A stretch of DNA of 39,721 nt from positions 1 through 39,721 of the forward strand of contig SVQV01000007.1 of the NCBI GenBank assembly GCA_015065175.1, written 5' to 3'. This DNA is from Oscillospiraceae bacterium (GTDB taxonomy: Bacteria; Bacillota; Clostridia; Oscillospirales; CAG-272). Shown here piece after piece: positions 10,839 to 21,782 of this stretch (position 1 is the first letter of the stretch; the number at the start of each line of letters is the position of its first letter). The notes beneath the pieces are model-generated. The model was given only the letters and a program-made list of their open reading frames with translations, did not search any database and was not told where the DNA came from. Both the position numbers and the translations under genes were made by a program.

Positions 10839-13800
10839 TCAGGACAGGGGCAATGTAATTGTTGTGCGAACGCTTCCATGGTAATGAGCGCGTGCTCCGC
10901 TTACCTCTTCACCGTTTACTGTACGTGTCCAGTCTGTGGTTCGTACCCAGTTGTTATAGGTGTAGCTCGTATATGCGCCGATACCCTTACATTGGTCGCT
11001 TTCAAATCTATCCGCACTCGTTCCCCAGAAGCATATCTTAGGATCGATGAGTTGATAAAGACCGAGGTCACCGCCGCTCACACCATGATGTGTTACCTGG
11101 AGTATATCGGATTCAAGTGTTTCTCCGTAAACGCTTGCCATCCACTTACAGCGTGCATCTGTCAGGTCGCCAAGGTAGACGACGCTCGTGTCTCCCAAGG
11201 TAATGCGCCAGGTACTGCTCGTGTCATTACCGTTTGAAGTGCGCGCAGGGTAATAGTCCTCATGGCTGAAGAGGATTTCTATCTCCGCGCCCGCTACAGA
11301 ATATTTCTGTCCTGTGCGGGGAATCCATCTCTCAACATCGGGATAATAGCGGTCAAGCACATCGTACACACGGGGAGCGCAGGTAGCAATACCGGGACCC
11401 TGATATGTGTAGATCTCCTCCGACATATCAAACGATTCGTAAAGCGGGAAGTTGAACGCTACCGCTTTAAGCACCATATCATCCTTATACTTTGCAATAA
11501 AATCAACAAACAGGAGAACGTGATCCTGATGTCCGTGTGTAAGCATCCAAAGCGAGATAACCGGCTTTTCTCCTTCGGGAGCAAGGCTTGTGAGATGATC
11601 CCACATCTTATCCATTGCGCCCCTGCGGTTAAGGTCGCCTCCGTCTACGATAATGAAGCTACCATCCTCAAGCTGCATCACATAAGAGCAAAGCTCGTGG
11701 TCCATAAGAGTAACGCTTGGAGTTACGCTTGCATTCTTCTTATATGGCGCCGCTTCTCCTGTCGGAAGGAAGGTGTCATTGGTCTGGATAATAATCTTCA
11801 TATCTGAAGTCGAGGGATAGAAGGATAGGATAATTGAGCACGCTTGGCTCTTATATGTCGCGAAGAGATTTTCGTTTATCTCATTATCCGCCACCTTTTC
11901 AAAGCCGTTTTCGGCAAGAAGAGTGCAATACGCAAGATATTCCGCCTCGGTTACATCCGAATAAGCAACTACATAGTTATTCTCGTTCGCATCGTATATT
12001 TCATTGCCCGCAAGAGTGCCATTCGTTGCGAGGTGCGGCACGCCTTCGCCTAAGCCGAAGTCACATTTAAGTGTTATATCGGTAGGGATAACTCCGTTGT
12101 CGGATACCGAAGCGACAAGAGCTGAAAGTGACGCGCGCAATGCGATATCGGAATATGCGCTTACTAATATGTCATCCCCGGCGGCAATTATTTCATATCC
12201 TGTATAGGAGCTATCCTCAAAGATTGCTGCCGCCGCTTCGTTATCGGCTGATGTCTTAACTAAGATGCGGCGTCCGCTTACAGCTTTGTCATCGCTGACA
12301 ACGGTAAGCGTTATTCCCGTACGGGAAGCAAGCGATGTAATGTACTCGTTTACCAGATTACGGTGAGCCGTATCCATGCTTGAGGGAAGAACTACTGTAA
12401 AGTCGGATACCGAAGCCGTACTGCTTCCGAGATTATTTACGGAAAGCATAGCGGGCAGATAAAACTTATCTAAATTATCGTTCTTCGCATCATCAGTCTT
12501 ATTGTCAGTGACAGATGCGAGAAGGACGGATAGCGCATCGGATAGCGCCAGACTGTCGGAAGCATACACAAGAATACGCTCTCCCGAGACGCCTATAGCG
12601 TAACTGTATCCTGCAGAGGCAGACGCTGTGGCAAATTCCGATGCATCAGCTCTTGTAGAGCCGTTCGCTATAACTATCTCGCGGTCACAGCGAGTCGCCG
12701 TTTCTTCGACTGTCTCAAATTCAGCTCCCGTTAAAGCATCAAGCTCTGTAACGAAGCCTTCAATTGCCGCTAAATCGGTGTCGGTAATGTTTTCCGGAAC
12801 TGTAACTTTATATTGCGCTTCAGCATTTGCCGAAAGTACGAGCTTACCTATCCTTGCTTCCTCGATAGCGGTTTCTTCGGGTATGAGTAAAAGCATTTTC
12901 TTAACCAAAGAGTCATTCTTATGCAAGCCTTGCATTTCGTCATTTCCTTCTTTTCCGAAATAGCTGTAAAGCTCTTTCGCATTCACTGTATTTCCAAAGC
13001 GTTCCGACTCTGCGGTGCTTGTAAAGACATAGGTGTGGCCGTCCTTTGTCAGAGTAATCGCATATTCATACGCAACCTCAAAGGAGATAAGCTCCGCAAC
13101 TCTTTCATCGGTGAGCGGCACTCTGTTGCCATCTGTGCCCGATGCATAGAGGACTGTTACTACATAGCATTCGCCCACACCATCAATGGTCTGCTTCTTT
13201 GCCGCGTAGGAAGCTCCGTTGTATATCGGTATCGCAACAGGCTTTCCGCACAAGGTGTGATCGAGCTGAGCATTTCGTGTAATAACATCAACTTTTACGG
13301 TGTAGCCTTTGCTTTCAAGGTCGGTAACAATGTCGGGATCGACAATGAAGATGGCACGCATACCCGCATAAGCATTCGTTGCTTCATTCTCGGTGCCTGA
13401 AATACGGACCTGATAGCCTTCAAATGTTACTATTTCATTAGCCTCTGCGCGAAGCTCGCCAAGGGTGCTGTTCTCAGAAAGGAATGCGTTGCGGAAGCTG
13501 TCATAGATATTCTGTATATCTGCACGCTGTCCGTCAAAGTCACAGTCTGCCATTTCTGCATAAAGCTCGCTTGCCGCCTCTTCGGAGCAAAGTATAAGGT
13601 CGATGTCCTGAAGGTCAAGGCGATAGAACTTAGCGATGTCCGCAAAGTGATTCTGCGCCTTTTGCTCAGCAGTCAACTCGGTGCGGTAATAGCGGATAGC
13701 ATATACCGCTCCCGCAAAGCTGTTAGACTGACCAAACACGGCGATATCCTTCACGTCCTCCATAGCTGTGCCTTCGGCAAAAAGAACGTCGACACCGTCT

Positions 13801-16800
13801 ACAGAAAGCTTGATGGATGCAGCCTTGCCAAGACCGGCGTTAGTAGCCGTCAATGTGTAAGCAGAGGTGGTGCCAAGTGTTGCCGCCGCTCCTACTCCGC
13901 TGCTTGCGGTAACATTATATAGTCCGCTCGGTGAGGTATAGACACCGTCGATGACACCAAGCGAGATGCCCGAAAGTGAAAACAGCTTTTCGTTTGCAAC
14001 ATCAGTCCGAAGCACGGCTTCGAGCGTAATTTTTTTGCTATCGCTCAGCCCCGAAGCTACTAAACCATCGGCGGGGCGATTATTGCCTCCAAAGAGCAGG
14101 AAGCCTCCGTTTCCGCGATGAGCACCTGCAGGAACTGCGAAAGGAGTTTCGTCACTCTCGTGAAGGATAGCAAGTCTTCCCTTCACAGAGAAGCGGTCAA
14201 AGCATCTGACACCGTCACATGTAAGACTTTCCCAGCTTGTTACTGATGTGTCTGCGGGCAAATAATCTGCGACACGTTCAGCGTTCCAATAGGAGTTGAG
14301 CGCGAAGAAGTCATATGCGATAACGAGATTGCCGTCGTTGTAGTAAAGAGAATCGTAAGATCTGTATTTTTCCTCATCGAAGCTCCAGTATGCCGAAACG
14401 GCATCTGTGATAGCCTCCTGAGTAAGAGAGTCGCCCGAAAGCGCATAGATATCACCGCGTGCTGAAAGCGGGATAGAATAGATAGCATCGAGCGAAAGTG
14501 GAGTACCGCCATTTTTTCTGTACTTTTCAATACAAGCATCAATAAAAGTGTTATGCAACTTGTATTCGTCGCCTGTGAGATAATGTGCCTCATATCTCTC
14601 GATCGTTATAGCCAATGTAATATCATTATAAGCCTTTTGCGCCTCAATATAGGTAGCATCTCCTATTGTATAGGATGCGAAAGCTTCATAAATGCGTTGT
14701 TTTTCGGCTTGGGTGTAGCTCTCAATGCCGTCAATGTCAAGTCTGAACCATTTTGCAATATCAGCGAAATGGTTCTGCGCACGCTCATCCTTGGTCAATA
14801 TATCGGAATAGTAGCGGGCTGCGTAAATCTTTCCTTCAACCAGTGAGCCATAGAATCCGAAATAGTTTCCTGCCGCAAGTCCCTTTGCACCAACCGTCAA
14901 TCCGGCTTCCAGAAGCTTATCTGCACCGTTATACATTACAAAGTCACCTGTATCCCCCGCAACTCCCGACACGTCTACGTTATATGTAAGTGTGGTGACC
15001 GAATCATACGGAGCAGGTGAGCCATTTACGGCATTCGTAAAATAAAGAAAATCACTATTGCCGTTTCCGCTTATATAGAAGGTCTTGGTAACGTTGTCCT
15101 TCTTTGCCGCAAGGTAAAGAGAGTTTATCAAGAGATAATTTGATCCTATATTTTGACCCAGCTCGGATATCATTTCAAGCGTCTTTATCTCTCCGCCGAA
15201 GGATCCACCCAAAATCAAGCCGCTACTGGTGTACATTCTGCCGCTTGAAGGCATGGTTATATATCCGCTTTCTATAGTTCCTATCGCAGAGCGTGCAAGT
15301 CTGTGACGGTCACCGCCCGAGGCAGTACCAAAAGCAGAATCCTGAGTTGCATAGTAGTATTTATCATTGGAGGTATTTCTGAAGTTAAGGAAAAATGCCT
15401 TGTCCTCCACTTTCCATGCATCCACGGCACGGCCCCACGCTGCATTAAGCACCTTGTTGGCACCGTTCATCTTTACTTCCGCTTTATAGGTCACGCCCTC
15501 TGCCGTCGGCATCGCCTCAATGGCCGCCATCGCCTCGACTTCGCCGAGATACTCACCTACCGTAATCGTTCCGTTTGCATCTGTTTTTGTAACCGTATAT
15601 ACAAAGCGATTGTTTTCAACCGTGAAATCAAAGGTCTTTCCCGTACCGTTTTTGCCGTTGTCCACATAATTATCGTTATCCGCAGGACCTGTAGGAATTA
15701 CGTAGTCGTGGTTTCCGTCGGGACACCAATATTCGTTGAGCTTGTAGAAGTCTATCGAATACATAAGATTGTCGGAAACGTAAAGAGAATTATAATATTC
15801 CTCATCCTTATCCGAAAGCTTTATTGTTGCTTTCAGTTCCGCAATTGCCGCTTTTGCTATCGCCTCTACCTCTCCGCGGGTATCTTCGAGAGTAAGAGAC
15901 GCGAATTCATTATAGAAATTTACAACATCTGCGTCCTTGCAAAGAGGAAGGCATTTAATATATTCAGAAATGTCAAGCCTGTAGAATTTTGCAATATCGG
16001 CGAAATGGTTCTGCGCGCGCTCTTCGGCATCCAATATGTCGGAATAATAGCGAACAGCGTAAAGCTTTGCACCCGTCAAGGAAGTTCCGTAACCGATGTA
16101 GTTACCCGAGCCTATACCACTTGTTCCGGGCTCATACTCGACACTCATAACCTTTTCTGCACCGTCAAACATTTCAAATGTTCCGCTTCCCGTTCCTCCG
16201 CTCATAGTGTAGGTGAGCGTAGTCAGCTTATCGTAGGATGCATAATGCGGAGCTTCGGGATTTCCTAATGTTACCGAGCCTTTGAAGGACACGTATTTGG
16301 GATTGTTGTTTTCGCTGATATAAAAGGTGTTACCGGGCTTTTTTGTTATTCTGACATAAACGGAATTCATCAAAATATAGTTGTCGGTCTTTATATTACT
16401 GCCAAGCACCGAGACCATTTCAAAGGTCTTGATTTGACCGTGATTAGCATTTATTGACAATCCGCTTCCGTAATAAGTTTGAGGGAGCGTAATATATCCG
16501 TTTTCAAGTGAAGCCACAGCCGAACGCGCCATGTCCAAGCGAGCATCGTTGACCGTGAAAGAATTTTGAGTTTTTATAGCAATTTTGCTATCGGGAGTAT
16601 TATTGAAATTTTTGAAAAAATCTCCGTCGGCTGTTACCCAATCTGACATAGCGCGCCCCCATGCCTTATTCAGCGTTGTTCCCTTGACTGCTGTATAGGT
16701 TGCGCCTTCCTCCTTGGTCATGCCGTCAATTGCAGCATTCGCATCATCCAAGCCGAGATATGTCCCCGACAACGTGGTGATGGTTTCACCGACCGTTTTG

Positions 16801-18335
16801 GTAATCGTATAATCAACTCGGTTTTCTGCTTTGGTAAAATCAAAGGTCTTTCCCGTACCGCCTACACCGTCATCCACGTAATTATTGTTATCTGCAGGAC
16901 CTGTAGGAATTACGTAGCCGTGGTTTCCGTCGGAGCACCAATATTCGTTGAGCTTATAGAAGTCCAACGAATACAGAAGATTGTCGGAAACGTAGAGCGC
17001 ATTATAGTCCTCAAGCTCAAAGTCAGGATAACTGAGCTCCGCATCAAGAGCAGCGTAAGCCGCATCAGCCACTGCCTGAGCTTCTTCACGCGTAGAGTCA
17101 AAATTGAGCGTGGCAAAGGCGTTGTAATACGCAGAAACATCATCAAGATTAAAGTGATTTTTCTTTGCGGCAAACTCGGAAACGTCAAGGCGGAAGAATT
17201 TAGCCATATCAGCGAAATGGTTCTGCGCACGCTCTTTTTCGGTAAGAACATCATAATAATAACGGGCAGCGTAAACCTTTGTTTCTGCCGAGTTGGCACC
17301 CCAGCCAATATAGTTGGATTTAGACAAATCTCCCGTTATACTATAGGTAGCATCCAAGACGGTCTCCGTGCCGTTATAAATAAACACCTTGCCGTTTTCC
17401 ATTGTATAGGTAAGAGTTATTGGCTTTTCATACGAAAAGGGCTTAGCGGAATTTACAGTCTCGATCTTTGTGGCACGCGCTGTAGATCCTGTAATTGTAT
17501 AGGTGCCGCTTGCTTCGTCCTTTTTCGGGCTAAATCCCATATTGTTGAAAAGGACATATGCCCCTTTAAGTGAATCTCCAAGAACGGAAACAATTTCTGC
17601 CGTACCGAGCATTGCGTCTATCGGGGAAACCTGAAGTCCCGAGCCTTGCTTATAAGAGACATCATAGGGGAGGAGCTGCACGTAGCCGTCGCCTAAGGTA
17701 TCTATCTGCGAACGTGCATATCTGTAGCGCGTATTACTTGTAACTGTTCCAAAGGCGGCGTTGTTAGTGTAAAACTCGGGATTGGTGGCACTAACCGAGG
17801 GGTTCGTGAAATTGAGGAACTGCTTGAAAAAGTTTTTGTCAGCAATGATCCAGTCGTTTACCGCGCGATTCCATGCGGCGTGTAATTCAGTACCCTTGAC
17901 TGCGGTATAGGTGACACCGTCTGCGGGTGTCATTTTGGCAATAGCAGCATTTGCATCAGCCTCGCCAAAATATGTACCGTCTAACGTAACCGTTCCGTTT
18001 GCATCGGTTTTTGTGATGGTATAGACAAACTGGTTGTTCTCAACGGTGAAATCGAAGGTCTTTCCCGTACCACCCTTGCCGTCATCAACATAATTTTTGT
18101 TATCTGAAGGTCCTATCGGAATTTCATAGCTATGTCCGTCAGGACTCCAGTATTCGTTCAGCTTAAAGAAGTCAATGGAATATGCAATGTTGTCCAGAAC
18201 GTACAATGCATTATACTCATCAGCGGTCATTTCCGTGTTTTCTTCCGCAGACGAGACGAATGACAGAACGCCAACAGGCATTGCGGTCACAAGGAGAGCA
18301 AAAAGTAAAAGTAAGGAAATCAAACGTTTTTTCAT
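10839..18335 (-). CDS. Giant secreted modular protein: four repeats, C-terminal metallo-beta-lactamase fold
   Basis: This 2498-residue protein has a clear signal peptide (MKKR, then a Leu/Ala-rich core to ~residue 30). Four related modules follow, at ~40-437, ~443-841, ~847-1240 and ~1325-1615. Each opens with 'D(F/Y)xKLNEYW' (63, 466, 870; degenerate at 1350) and closes with 'AQNHFADIAKFYRLD' (369, 773, 1185, 1559). The strand-rich interior ending in 'YAARYY' suggests a LamG/concanavalin-like fold; that is inference. Residues ~1842-1943 and ~1978-2078 are two similar alpha/beta segments. The C-terminus (~2200-2498) is a metallo-beta-lactamase domain with HxHxDH (2267-2272), Asp2390 in 'YLGDLTD' and 'THHG' (2415-2418), closest to the ComEC/Rec2-type group. 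No cell-wall anchor is visible. AAAGG precedes the ATG. Substrate unknown; hydrolysis of an extracellular polymer is plausible. Confidence 0.9.
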   Translation of the reverse strand: MKKRLISLLLLFALLVTAMPVGVLSFVSSAEENTEMTADEYNALYVLDNIAYSIDFFKLNEYWSPDGHSYEIPIGPSDNKNYVDDGKGGTGKTFDFTVENNQFVYTITKTDANGTVTLDGTYFGEADANAAIAKMTPADGVTYTAVKGTELHAAWNRAVNDWIIADKNFFKQFLNFTNPSVSATNPEFYTNNAAFGTVTSNTRYRYARSQIDTLGDGYVQLLPYDVSYKQGSGLQVSPIDAMLGTAEIVSVLGDSLKGAYVLFNNMGFSPKKDEASGTYTITGSTARATKIETVNSAKPFSYEKPITLTYTMENGKVFIYNGTETVLDATYSITGDLSKSNYIGWGANSAETKVYAARYYYDVLTEKERAQNHFADMAKFFRLDVSEFAAKKNHFNLDDVSAYYNAFATLNFDSTREEAQAVADAAYAALDAELSYPDFELEDYNALYVSDNLLYSLDFYKLNEYWCSDGNHGYVIPTGPADNNNYVDDGVGGTGKTFDFTKAENRVDYTITKTVGETITTLSGTYLGLDDANAAIDGMTKEEGATYTAVKGTTLNKAWGRAMSDWVTADGDFFKNFNNTPDSKIAIKTQNSFTVNDARLDMARSAVASLENGYITLPQTYYGSGLSINANHGQIKTFEMVSVLGSNIKTDNYILMNSVYVRITKKPGNTFYISENNNPKYVSFKGSVTLGNPEAPHYASYDKLTTLTYTMSGGTGSGTFEMFDGAEKVMSVEYEPGTSGIGSGNYIGYGTSLTGAKLYAVRYYSDILDAEERAQNHFADIAKFYRLDISEYIKCLPLCKDADVVNFYNEFASLTLEDTRGEVEAIAKAAIAELKATIKLSDKDEEYYNSLYVSDNLMYSIDFYKLNEYWCPDGNHDYVIPTGPADNDNYVDNGKNGTGKTFDFTVENNRFVYTVTKTDANGTITVGEYLGEVEAMAAIEAMPTAEGVTYKAEVKMNGANKVLNAAWGRAVDAWKVEDKAFFLNFRNTSNDKYYYATQDSAFGTASGGDRHRLARSAIGTIESGYITMPSSGRMYTSSGLILGGSFGGEIKTLEMISELGQNIGSNYLLINSLYLAAKKDNVTKTFYISGNGNSDFLYFTNAVNGSPAPYDSVTTLTYNVDVSGVAGDTGDFVMYNGADKLLEAGLTVGAKGLAAGNYFGFYGSLVEGKIYAARYYSDILTKDERAQNHFADIAKWFRLDIDGIESYTQAEKQRIYEAFASYTIGDATYIEAQKAYNDITLAITIERYEAHYLTGDEYKLHNTFIDACIEKYRKNGGTPLSLDAIYSIPLSARGDIYALSGDSLTQEAITDAVSAYWSFDEEKYRSYDSLYYNDGNLVIAYDFFALNSYWNAERVADYLPADTSVTSWESLTCDGVRCFDRFSVKGRLAILHESDETPFAVPAGAHRGNGGFLLFGGNNRPADGLVASGLSDSKKITLEAVLRTDVANEKLFSLSGISLGVIDGVYTSPSGLYNVTASSGVGAAATLGTTSAYTLTATNAGLGKAASIKLSVDGVDVLFAEGTAMEDVKDIAVFGQSNSFAGAVYAIRYYRTELTAEQKAQNHFADIAKFYRLDLQDIDLILCSEEAASELYAEMADCDFDGQRADIQNIYDSFRNAFLSENSTLGELRAEANEIVTFEGYQVRISGTENEATNAYAGMRAIFIVDPDIVTDLESKGYTVKVDVITRNAQLDHTLCGKPVAIPIYNGASYAAKKQTIDGVGECYVVTVLYASGTDGNRVPLTDERVAELISFEVAYEYAITLTKDGHTYVFTSTAESERFGNTVNAKELYSYFGKEGNDEMQGLHKNDSLVKKMLLLIPEETAIEEARIGKLVLSANAEAQYKVTVPENITDTDLAAIEGFVTELDALTGAEFETVEETATRCDREIVIANGSTRADASEFATASASAGYSYAIGVSGERILVYASDSLALSDALSVLLASVTDNKTDDAKNDNLDKFYLPAMLSVNNLGSSTASVSDFTVVLPSSMDTAHRNLVNEYITSLASRTGITLTVVSDDKAVSGRRILVKTSADNEAAAAIFEDSSYTGYEIIAAGDDILVSAYSDIALRASLSALVASVSDNGVIPTDITLKCDFGLGEGVPHLATNGTLAGNEIYDANENNYVVAYSDVTEAEYLAYCTLLAENGFEKVADNEINENLFATYKSQACSIILSFYPSTSDMKIIIQTNDTFLPTGEAAPYKKNASVTPSVTLMDHELCSYVMQLEDGSFIIVDGGDLNRRGAMDKMWDHLTSLAPEGEKPVISLWMLTHGHQDHVLLFVDFIAKYKDDMVLKAVAFNFPLYESFDMSEEIYTYQGPGIATCAPRVYDVLDRYYPDVERWIPRTGQKYSVAGAEIEILFSHEDYYPARTSNGNDTSSTWRITLGDTSVVYLGDLTDARCKWMASVYGETLESDILQVTHHGVSGGDLGLYQLIDPKICFWGTSADRFESDQCKGIGAYTSYTYNNWVRTTDWTRTVNGEEVSGARAHYHGSVRTTITLPLS

Positions 18336-19556: not shown

Positions 19557-19750
19557 AATGCGTGTTATCCTTAACGGAGAACACGCAATGAATTGCAACC
19601 TTGCACTTGCATGAATTGAAAGCTTTGCTTTCGTGAATTACCTGCGGCATGAATTGTGCCAAACGGCACATTGGTTGTAATTCAATTCATGGAGCGAAGC
19701 GAGAAATCATAGCGAAGCCAATTCATGATGCGCAAGCATCAATTCATCTA
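19557..19750. repeat. Interspersed hairpin array with ATGAATT/AATTCAT cores
   Basis: Seven to eight copies of ATGAATT, its complement AATTCAT or one-base variants lie at ~20-35 bp intervals. Between them are different perfect small hairpins: TGCAA-cc-TTGCA, GAAAGC-ttt-GCTTTC, GTGCC-aaac-GGCAC and GATGC-gcaa-GCATC. The left end carries a longer hairpin, TGCGTGTT to AACACGCA (~19559-19587). The architecture matches the 2355-2520 array but the core word differs. One stem-loop (stem + GCAA + stem) uses the same GNRA-type loop as TTTTGC-gcaa-GCAAAA there. No coding potential is seen. Confidence 0.7.
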
Positions 19751-19761
19751 TAATAACGAAC

Positions 19762-19803
19762 AGAGCAAGAATAGAAGGGAGTTTATCCTTTTACTCTTGC
19801 TCT
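19762..19803. terminator. Terminator-like hairpin downstream of the XRE-GlmM gene
   Basis: AGAGCAAGA (19762-19770) pairs perfectly with TCTTGCTCT (19795-19803), with an inner GGA/TCC pair. Its right flank (TGCTCTTTCTGCTTGT) is identical to the reverse complement of the left flank of the 10738-10792 hairpin, so this is a repeated terminator-like element. The U-tail is moderate. Confidence 0.55.
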
Positions 19804-19927
19804 TTCTGCTTGTAATATGGGTTTGGGCTTAACCCAAGTACATTTGAATAGTCAAATGTGATGCTCGCACTGCGTTGAATATTCAAATTCTCCGCTAAGA
19901 ACATCACTCTAAGCATCATAAGTGAAT
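19804..19927. other. Gene-free stretch with further perfect hairpins
   Basis: Between the repeated hairpin and the XRE-GlmM stop I see TTGGG-cttaa-CCCAA (~19823-19837), ACATTTGA-atag-TCAAATGT (19840-19859) and a long-range GATGCT/AGCATC pair (~19860 and ~19912). There is no open frame with a ribosome site. It may be a continuation of the hairpin array with other cores, or a complex 3' region. Confidence 0.5.
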
Positions 19928-21538
19928 TCAGATACTGTAGCCCTTTTCTTTAACTACCGACACTACCTTTTCGCAAAGCTCGGCGCAGAGGGCTTCACTT
20001 TCGCTTTCTACCATGACTCGAACACAAGGCTCGGTGCCGCTTTCACGGAAAAGGACTCTGCCCTTGCCGTTGATTGTTTTTTCGGCTTCAGCGCAGGCTT
20101 TTTTTACATCGGGATCGTTTGCCGCCGCACGCTTATCCTTTACTTTTACATTTACCGTCTTTTGTGGGTATATCATAATATCCTCGACCAACTTGCTGAG
20201 TGTACTTTTCCTGTCGCAAAGCTCCTCGCATACCATCATAGCGGTAAGGATTCCGTCGCCTGTGGTGGCGTATTTTTTGATTATAATATGTCCCGACTGC
20301 TCGCCGCCTAAGCTGTAGTCCTCCTTCTGCATACATTCATAAACAAAGCGGTCGCCGACAGATGTCTGCACACACTCTATTCCTATCTTTTTAAGAGAAG
20401 CCACAAGCCCGCTGTTTGACATAACAGTGTTTACGAGAGTGTTTTTATTCAACATTTCCCTCTCTTTTAAGCGCTTGGCGAGCAGATACATAATAGAGTC
20501 TCCGTCAACTACGTTTCCGTTCTCGTCAACGGCTATGCATCGGTCTGCGTCCCCGTCAAAAGCAAATGCTAAGTCGAGATGCTTTTCTTTTACCAAATTA
20601 CAGAGGTTTTCGGGGTGTGTAGAGCCGCAATTCTCGTTTATATTGAAGCCGTTAGGCTCTGCGCCTATCACTACGGTCTGCGCTCCCAAAGCATCAAAAA
20701 CCGCTTTTGCTATCATCCAGGATGCTCCGTTTGCGCTGTCTATGCCTATGCGCATCCTTCTGTATGAATGGGACGCGAGCGAGATAAGATATCCCACATA
20801 TCTGTTTCTGCCCGAAACGTAGTCGATAATAGAGCCTATGCGCTCACGCTTTGCCATAGGCAGATCATCCCCATCCACGCCAAGCGCCGAAAGGTCTCCG
20901 TCGATATAACTCTCTATGTATGAGGTAATATCGTCGTCTAATTTCTCTCCGTAGCGGTTTATCACCTTTATTCCGTTATCGTAGAAGGGATTATGCGAGG
21001 CGGTTATCATAATTCCGCAGTCAAACTCCTCCTGCCGTGTAACGTATGACACGCTCGGTGTTGTGGTAACGTGCAGCATATAAGCGTCGGCGCCCGAGGC
21101 GGTAATTCCCGCAACTATCGAGTATTCGAGCATATAGCTCGAACGTCTTGTGTCCTTTCCTATAACGATACGGGGACGGTAACTCGGACTCTGACATCCC
21201 GAAAGCTCAGAGGAATAATACCAACCGAGGAAGCGTCCCACCTTATACGCCTGTATCGAGGTAAGATTGAGGTTTGCCTCTCCTCTGAAGCCGTCCGTGC
21301 CAAAGTATTTATTCTTCTTTTTCTCTCCCTTGCTTACAGTCAATTTATCACGCATAAGCTCGTCACAGGAGATAGAAAAGGTATCGCATAGCTGTATTAT
21401 TTTATCTATCTGCGGTAATACCTGATCCATTTCCCATTTTGATATCGACTGACGGGAAACTCCCAGCTTTTCCGCAAGCGCTTCCTGAGATATATTGTAT
21501 GCCGTTCTCAGATGTGCAATTTTTTCGCCTATCGTCAT
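19928..21538 (-). CDS. XRE-family helix-turn-helix fused to phosphoglucosamine mutase (GlmM-like)
   Basis: This 536-residue protein joins two known parts. Residues 3-62 are a complete HTH_3/XRE DNA-binding domain ('ISQEALAEKLGVSRQSISKWE', helices 2-3 intact). After a ~14-residue basic linker, residues 77-536 are a full phosphoglucosamine mutase. It shows 'FGTDGFRGEAN', the active-site serine loop TASHNP (Ser181), the metal loop DGDADR (328-333), the sugar loop GGEQSGH (411-417) and the phosphate loop RESGTEP (498-504). GlmM makes glucosamine 1-phosphate for cell-wall UDP-GlcNAc. The start is secure: GAGG lies 8 nt before the ATG, and the Met near 62 has no ribosome site. Usual cdaA-cdaR-glmM neighbours are absent. 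It may be an enzyme-sensor that also regulates transcription. Confidence 0.93.
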   Translation of the reverse strand: MTIGEKIAHLRTAYNISQEALAEKLGVSRQSISKWEMDQVLPQIDKIIQLCDTFSISCDELMRDKLTVSKGEKKKNKYFGTDGFRGEANLNLTSIQAYKVGRFLGWYYSSELSGCQSPSYRPRIVIGKDTRRSSYMLEYSIVAGITASGADAYMLHVTTTPSVSYVTRQEEFDCGIMITASHNPFYDNGIKVINRYGEKLDDDITSYIESYIDGDLSALGVDGDDLPMAKRERIGSIIDYVSGRNRYVGYLISLASHSYRRMRIGIDSANGASWMIAKAVFDALGAQTVVIGAEPNGFNINENCGSTHPENLCNLVKEKHLDLAFAFDGDADRCIAVDENGNVVDGDSIMYLLAKRLKEREMLNKNTLVNTVMSNSGLVASLKKIGIECVQTSVGDRFVYECMQKEDYSLGGEQSGHIIIKKYATTGDGILTAMMVCEELCDRKSTLSKLVEDIMIYPQKTVNVKVKDKRAAANDPDVKKACAEAEKTINGKGRVLFRESGTEPCVRVMVESESEALCAELCEKVVSVVKEKGYSI

Positions 21539-21576
21539 AATTATTCCTCACCGTTCTAAATATTTTCACTTATTAT

Positions 21577-21620
21577 TATACTACGTACTTATAAAATATT
21601 GTCACATATATTGTAGTATA
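21577..21620 (-). promoter_or_regulatory. Putative promoter with flanking operator-like boxes of XRE-GlmM
   Basis: TATACTAC (21577-21584) and its perfect complement GTAGTATA (21613-21620) bracket a 28-bp AT-rich spacer ~40-80 bp upstream of the ATG. On the minus strand the proximal box overlaps a TATAAT-like -10 (GTAGTATAAT). The -35 is weak (GACAAT at 17 bp). The arrangement suits a dimeric XRE protein regulating its own gene, but this is inference from one site pair in AT-rich DNA. Confidence 0.4.
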
Positions 21621-21782
21621 TTTTGCAAAAAAAATCAACCTATTTGACTTTGAATATAAATGCAACCTCAGGTTGCGGTTTTGCTTATTTTTTCGACGAC
21701 AAGAATAATTTTAAGGATGCGCGAAAATTGTTTTTGCAAAATGCTTTTAACAATGTCGAATTATGCGATTTCAGACAAGAAG

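Follow-up and report, generated by a model that had tools for sequence, protein, structure and literature searches.

An XRE helix-turn-helix fused to phosphoglucosamine mutase in uncultured gut bacteria, and a conserved palindrome as its likely target

Enzymes which possess their own DNA-binding domain are known. According to the available text of PMC4016012, the Group II biotin protein ligase BirA of E. coli and B. subtilis combines enzyme and DNA-binding domain in one chain, and sister enzymes without the domain exist as Group I. BzdR of Azoarcus is composed of an N-terminal XRE domain, a linker and an enzyme-derived C-terminal part, as described in the available part of PMC3602430. A gene of comparable layout was analyzed here in a stretch of 39,721 nucleotides (the window) of contig SVQV01000007.1 from the Oscillospiraceae bacterium assembly GCA_015065175.1. 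It lies on the minus strand at 19928..21538 and encodes a phosphoglucosamine mutase (GlmM) with an N-terminal XRE-type helix-turn-helix (HTH), referred to as HTH-GlmM. Like BirA, it has enzyme and DNA-binding domain, both complete as judged by sequence, in one chain and sister enzymes without the domain; it differs from BirA in the families to which its HTH and its enzyme part belong. With BzdR it shares the order of the parts. BzdR lost catalysis whereas HTH-GlmM keeps its catalytic residues invariant, and the catalysis-lost enzyme domain of the BzdR subfamily is, judging by sequence, not found in it. Stand-alone GlmM (TIGR01455) has an entire mutase and shares its loops, but is without HTH; among relatives from near genomes it is 39-70% identical to the window GlmM. 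The repressors of lambda and P22 belong to the same HTH superfamily and have operators upstream of the -35 of their own gene, as predicted for the fusion gene; unlike HTH-GlmM they have no enzyme domain, and their operator sequence is another.

In Firmicutes glmM is found in a cdaA-cdaR-glmM operon, and the glmS ribozyme exerts control where amino-sugar synthesis begins. The fusion gene differs from both. The first-pass annotation of the window had stated rightly that cdaA, cdaR and glmS are not nearby; the only DAC (cyclase) domain found in the genome is on contig C127 while the fusion is on C136. The ribozyme is an RNA acting on glmS, unlike HTH-GlmM. Neither the ribozyme (RF00234; own genome and 24 same-genus genomes searched) nor a full-length GlmS (whole own genome, 92% complete; best score 56 bits against a cut-off of 418, with 14 of 14 controls positive) was found. 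A HTH-fused GlmM, or GlmM as a transcription factor, was not announced in the titles and abstract starts which searches of the open-licence literature listed, with InterPro-type databases outside that search, and automatic domain annotation may already show the architecture. What is new here is a likely DNA target for the HTH of the fused GlmM. GlmM of S. aureus contacts the c-di-AMP cyclase DacA and thereby inhibits it (available text of PMC6368335).

The open reading frame starts with ATG at 21538, stops at 19928-19930 and encodes 536 amino acids without internal stop. The XRE-type HTH occupies codons 1-62 (21353..21538), followed by a variable linker of codons 63-76 (21311..21352) and a complete phosphoglucosamine mutase of codons 77-536 (19931..21310), all on the minus strand. 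An XRE HTH fused to a complete GlmM with all catalytic loops had been described in the first-pass annotation, and the domain searches bear this out. Residues 8-61 match Pfam HTH_3 with 49.6 bits, where the cut-off is 23, and residues 77-526 match PGM_PMM I-IV, every one over its cut-off, while the NCBIfam model TIGR01455 (glmM) scored 502.1 bits against an equivalog cut-off of 447.55. The closest solved chains to the mutase part are GlmM (7ojr and 3pdk), and the HTH matches P22 C2 (1adr and 3jxb; E 2e-5 and 5e-5) and the Xre regulator of ICEBs1. The phosphoserine, metal, sugar and phosphate loops, with Ser181 in ITASHNP, DGDADR, GGEQSGH and RESGTEP, are all present. Ser181, D328-G329-D330, D332-R333, E413, S415-G416-H417, R498 and S500-P504 are invariant in an alignment of 46 sequences (40 fusions and 6 stand-alone).

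The AlphaFold2 model, made with 46 aligned sequences, has a mean predicted local distance difference test (pLDDT) score of 88.9. It is composed of a complete five-helix HTH (residues 3-13, 18-25, 29-36, 44-54 and 58-62), a flexible linker with pLDDT below 50 at residues 70-74, and a folded GlmM body. The recognition helix, approximately at residues 28-36, is conserved; R29, Q30, S33, W35 and E36 are invariant in 64 fusion rows. In these rows the mean column entropy is 2.61 bits for residues 62-76 and 1.16 bits for the HTH. A Shine-Dalgarno-like GGTGAGG (21546..21552, minus strand) lies seven bases 5' of the ATG, in agreement with the good ribosome site claimed earlier. The claim that no internal start is supported also holds. 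An in-frame linker start with a Shine-Dalgarno-like sequence was observed in only 1 of 63 fusions and residue 62 is methionine in 2 of 64, so internal initiation near the linker is not a conserved feature and was rejected.

The family was collected by reading 110 glmM places from a contig scan and from near genomes; the scan gave the best 80 places and is not a random sample. Sixty-four places are fusions, including the window gene and some duplicates with identical rows (for example L013/L055 and L022/L083). The other fusions asked after by the first-pass annotation thus number 63, and they are 56-74% identical to the window protein. Among 59 near genomes (own included) 12 have the fusion, and ten of these show a single GlmM match at 1e-30; the exceptions, G007 and G034, hold a second, stand-alone GlmM. 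The own genome (2.34 Mb in 187 contigs, 92% complete, 5.7% contamination) contains the fusion gene standing alone. A second GlmM, which had also been suggested as a check, was not found in it, and the next mutase-like protein is 24% identical. In an order-wide sample of 394 genomes, at least 31 from seven families have a match starting at residue 1-3, a count which is a lower bound. Named fusion sources among the best 80 places are metagenome-assembled genomes (MAGs) of Clostridia, many from ruminant gut, and further MAGs labelled Erysipelotrichaceae, Bacillales, Bacilli and Acholeplasmatales. Fused GlmM occurs in many uncultured gut and rumen bacteria.

Upstream of the fusion gene, a palindrome was identified which is the likely target of the GlmM HTH, as suggested by its conservation. 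In the window this predicted operator, O1 (GCAACCTGAGGTTGC; 21662..21676, minus strand), is centred at -66 of the predicted start site, and it is the only exact match to GCAACYNNNRGTTGC in the own genome. With equal base frequencies about 0.6 sites would be expected by chance, so the location of the single site counts and not its number. Of the 63 testable fusions (L064, with 6 bp of upstream sequence, being left aside), 46 have the palindrome GCAACYnnnRGTTGC in the 300 bp before the start, and four more have it with one mismatch. Within the same distance it was found at 0 of 46 stand-alone glmM genes, one of which (L111) has 27 bp of upstream sequence only; the Fisher p of 1e-16 for this difference ignores kinship. 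The 46 include eight stand-alone genes which branch inside or beside the fusion clade (L020, L024, L030, L032, L033, L081, L088 and L092). When the upstream regions were aligned on the palindrome, the columns beyond its short A/T-rich edges and the promoter elements were near random.

An RNA hairpin or terminator at this place was considered and rejected. The palindrome is classed by the scan as terminator-like on both strands, but letters 6 and 10 of the palindrome do not covary (CG 15, CA 11, TG 9, TA 9; p 0.76). This free combination points to two protein-bound DNA half-sites and speaks against an RNA stem. Moreover, the six sense-strand positions after the palindrome in relatives are A-rich (153 of 264 bases A, 59 T), which together with the missing covariation speaks against a terminator. 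A large regulon in the own genome was also rejected on the single exact match to O1, the genome-wide search having covered exact sites.

An independent line of evidence came from a pattern search of the 59 near genomes, which gave 41 sites in 29 genomes compared to 11 for the reversed control. One site per genome, 29 of the 41, was read. At 20 of the 29 loci an XRE gene with a recognition helix of the RQ[AST]x[AS][KR]WE type starts within 260 bp downstream; seven of these are fusions and 13 are other XRE genes without mutase (13 of 22 non-fusion loci). A fourteenth non-fusion XRE gene, with a slightly different helix, was seen by eye at L139. These loci suggest that XRE domains of this helix type bind the palindrome, which is a candidate common operator of a broad XRE subfamily. 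The stand-alone XRE genes with an RQA-type helix and the palindrome upstream are at L125, L127-L129, L133, L134, L137, L141, L142, L144-L146 and L148.

The palindrome also has a preferred position relative to the promoter. In the window, a -35 element TTGATT (21633..21638) and a -10 element TACAAT (21610..21615) with a 17-base spacer were found by promoter scan, and a degenerate second dyad, O2 (CAAATAGGTTG; 21636..21646), overlaps the -35; all are on the minus strand, and with its CAA-N5-TTG form O2 is weak in the own genome. Thirty-nine distinct regions upstream of fusions have an exact O1 at least 75 bp from the ATG. With the best sigma-70-like promoter located downstream of O1, 34 of them have the O1 centre between -62 and -68, compared to a mean of 3.8 and a maximum of 10 in 300 shuffles. 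A search of the whole regions placed 42 palindromes at a median of -65 (quartiles -66.75 and -64.25). At the non-fusion XRE genes the palindrome is at -64 to -67 in 5 of 11 scored. In 14 of 40 regions O1 is followed by the exact O2 dyad, CAA-N7-TTG, compared to a mean of 0.24 and a maximum of 3 in 2000 shuffles. The centres of O1 and O2 are 22 bp apart in 11 of 15 cases. Of 14 exact O2 copies, 12 are centred at -43 or -44 and end one base before the -35. The segment 21540-21640, proposed earlier for DNA-binding assays, lies outside the predicted main site.

Bacilli-type fusions have a dyad type of their own (L072-L078, L082, L084-L087 and L089-L091). GTAAA-N6-TTNAC was observed within 200 bp in 14 of these 15; among the 48 other fusions three have it, and among the 46 stand-alone genes none. 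In four of the Bacilli-type fusions (L074 and L076-L078) a GCAAC palindrome lies 28-29 bases 5' of the ATG, close to the ribosome site and downstream of the predicted promoter.

The fusion and its conservation are evident from the sequence, as are the palindrome, the link between palindrome and HTH, and the location at the promoter; DNA binding, autoregulation and retained mutase activity are inferred. The simplest account is a bifunctional, self-regulating GlmM of the kind of BirA, to which we give a probability of roughly 0.78. The DNA-binding form of GlmM supposed in the first-pass annotation is, at the level of sequence, well supported, since the HTH is intact and conserved and the palindrome tracks it. 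According to this account the gene would produce a phosphoglucosamine mutase which also binds O1 in its own promoter through the N-terminal XRE domain, and in some relatives also the weaker O2. The protein would control transcription of its own gene and of those which follow, in relatives mostly a GlmU-type N-acetyltransferase gene, often nagB and in few cases glmS. In the own genome a detached acetyltransferase gene would perhaps be controlled in trans through a degenerate O1 and O2. That the mutase domain might pass its substrate or phosphorylation state to the HTH, and that transcription would follow amino-sugar phosphate flux as proposed earlier, are guesses.

Several observations weigh against this account. 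The palindrome was spotted by eye, and its counts were then made on those very upstream regions; O1, O2 and the GTAAA dyads were all defined after inspection of the sequences in which they were counted. Only the own-genome scan, the near-genome scan and the reading of palindrome loci are independent of the discovery of the palindrome. An exact palindrome is missing from 17 of 63 fusions (4 with one mismatch, 10 Bacilli-type and 3 others), which means that the operator has no single fixed sequence. The fusion loci are related and the Fisher p-values ignore phylogeny. By the pattern, an XRE gene is missing at nine of the 29 palindrome loci (at eight when judged by eye). The window and 26 of 40 regions lack the exact O2. 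A spacing of 11 occurs just as often as one of 7 (14 each), because TTGnTTG, found in 32 of 40 regions, puts two TTGs four bases apart. Finally, the window gene has neither an acetyltransferase gene nor nagB behind it.

The alternative which survives best is a plain homeostatic autoregulation, in which the HTH binds O1/O2 according to protein level and the mutase senses nothing. We regard it as a serious contender, at slightly under even odds. The single exact target site in the own genome, the solitary position of the gene here and the variable, predictedly flexible linker with no sign of a conserved signalling interface fit it well. Evolution of the family fits it less well. The fusion is spread over seven families with pathway genes alongside, and its parts co-diverge; HTH and GlmM distances covary with a Mantel r of 0.67 (56 sequences; permutation maximum 0.23), so the two appear to have moved together. 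Among fused enzyme-regulators whose function is known, moreover, ligand sensing is frequent. In the tree of the GlmM part (106 rows; the alignment omitted 3 of 110 for short frames and the tree one more) fusions were clustered, with 5 state changes compared to a shuffle mean of 33, and 6 when six long rows were removed. Separate origins were considered on the strength of these five changes and not adopted, as a single fusion clade yet passes the approximately unbiased (AU) test (p-AU 0.378); the fusion may have had one origin, with or without losses.

For the direction of control, negative autoregulation is favoured at about an even chance, for two reasons. The predicted core promoters score fairly well (on average 4.2 and 5.0 of 6 matches, with a finder which requires no fewer than 3 and 4 and gives preference to a 17-base spacer), and in some Bacilli-type relatives a copy of the site lies downstream of the predicted promoter. 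Positive autoregulation is a close rival, though we hold it only tentatively; O1 and O2 lie approximately where lambda CI sits on PRM, that is at -66 and -42, where the site to which further CI is recruited is OR2. A specific form of it would resemble lambda PRM, with a dimer at the strong O1 (-65) aiding a second one at the weak O2 (-43) which contacts sigma and activates transcription. The preferred positions of O1 and of the exact O2 agree with such a model, and so does lambda CI itself, which prefers OR1, recruits further CI and activates PRM (available text of PMC9295150). This form is nevertheless doubtful. The core promoters are rather good for an activated promoter, even allowing for the matches demanded by the finder, the exact O2 is found in a minority of regions, and the palindrome copies at +12 in L076 and +27 in L078 resemble repression sites.

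The genes behind the fusion point to the amino-sugar pathway. A left-handed beta-helix protein of about 220-230 aa is encoded directly behind the fusion at 55 of 62 loci with enough sequence, and behind stand-alone glmM at 19 of 44, so this linkage is older or wider than the fusion. The protein resembles archaeal GlmU in the C-terminal part of the latter (TIGR03992, 141 bits, under the cut-off for the whole protein) and also matches the sugar-1-phosphate nucleotidylyltransferase chains 2ggo and 5z09; by homology it is read as a putative GlmU-type GlcN-1-P N-acetyltransferase. In 25 of 55 fusions nagB follows at a distance of up to 1.1 kb, compared to 1 of 38 stand-alone genes, that one being L020, a possible case of HTH loss; the operon NagB scores 278 bits with TIGR00502 against a cut-off of 237. 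In the own genome the acetyltransferase gene (48% identical) is on contig C129 and nagB (403 bits) on another contig. GAAAACAACGGTTGC, with two mismatches to O1, lies 178 bp before the acetyltransferase start and is followed by an exact CAA-N7-TTG (L163:1320-1356, contig C129). In dinucleotide shuffles of this region a degenerate O1 appeared in 1.4% and O1 with O2 in 0.02% (0.0002). At the own nagB no O1-like site was found, the best having 5 mismatches. Control of the detached acetyltransferase gene in trans may occur; it is a hint only, as two genes were examined and nagB is without a site.

Fusion genomes often seem to be without glmS. Among near relatives glmS was found in 1 of 12 fusion genomes compared to 20 of 37 stand-alone genomes (one of the 20 a partial match), and order-wide in 10 of the 31 fusion genomes (at least) compared to 240 of 363 others (Fisher 3e-4); these comparisons are uncorrected for kinship or completeness. 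A simple absence of GlmS as explanation was rejected, as it is contradicted by glmS in the operon at L019 (genome G011, in the nagB slot), by glmS 12 bp behind the fusion at L093, and by a 36-37% identical glmS relative 2-3 kb upstream of the Bacilli-type fusions L074 and L090. As a separate observation, glmS was not found in most same-genus genomes examined, fused or not, many of which are incomplete. In Akkermansia, which has no GlmS and needs GlcNAc, NagB could not form GlcN-6-P at physiological conditions (available text of PMC5902328). NagB therefore need not make GlcN-6-P in the fusion genomes, and its role as GlcN-6-P maker is only a possibility. A wider proposal would make HTH-GlmM a flux reader, which through O1/O2 controls an hth-glmM/N-acetyltransferase/nagB operon from a PRM-like promoter and replaces the glmS ribozyme as feedback device. 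UDP-GlcNAc precursors would be formed without GlmS, from NagB running towards GlcN-6-P or from scavenged GlcNAc, and gut Clostridia and Bacilli would have passed the gene among themselves by horizontal transfer. We consider this combination unlikely, and the glmS-like gene near two Bacilli-type fusion loci lowers its odds slightly further.

It is still less probable that another XRE regulator mainly binds O1 and that the GlmM HTH is a passenger. Other XRE proteins could bind O1, as the palindrome is common to many stand-alone XRE genes and the own genome has 12 further HTH matches. The recognition helix of the fusions is, however, conserved, and the palindrome was found upstream of none of the 46 stand-alone glmM genes, also where the HTH seems to be lost. 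A dead mutase part acting as sensor in a purely regulatory protein has a precedent in BzdR, where the XRE domain is joined to a shikimate kinase-like domain (available part of PMC3602430), but it is very improbable in view of the invariant catalytic residues, the score over the GlmM equivalog cut-off, and the finding of no other GlmM in the own genome or, at 1e-30, in most of the 12 fusion genomes among near relatives. A sequencing error, frameshift or chimaera joining two genes, named in the first-pass annotation as a possible refutation and conceivable in a genome of many contigs and some contamination, is practically excluded by the HTH standing in frame at the 63 further loci from many assemblies.

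Two other features of the window were noted. On the minus strand at 10839-18335, a 2498-aa open reading frame begins in the manner of a signal peptide, contains internal repeats and carries a C-terminal HGHQDH motif which by eye resembles that of metallo-beta-lactamase folds; it has no Pfam match at 0.001. In the intergenic region 19683-19888 behind the fusion, CAATTCATG occurs as a short direct repeat, and there are two inverted repeats with lengths of 17 and 14 nt.

GlmM belongs to the housekeeping enzymes of peptidoglycan synthesis. The palindrome allows a direct and cheap test, with a single probe and a single protein, of whether a sugar-phosphate mutase can regulate itself. The fused, the unfused and the apparently unfused-again relatives form a natural control set. 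The tie to glmS-poor genomes raises the question of how amino sugars are made or scavenged by gut bacteria of this kind.
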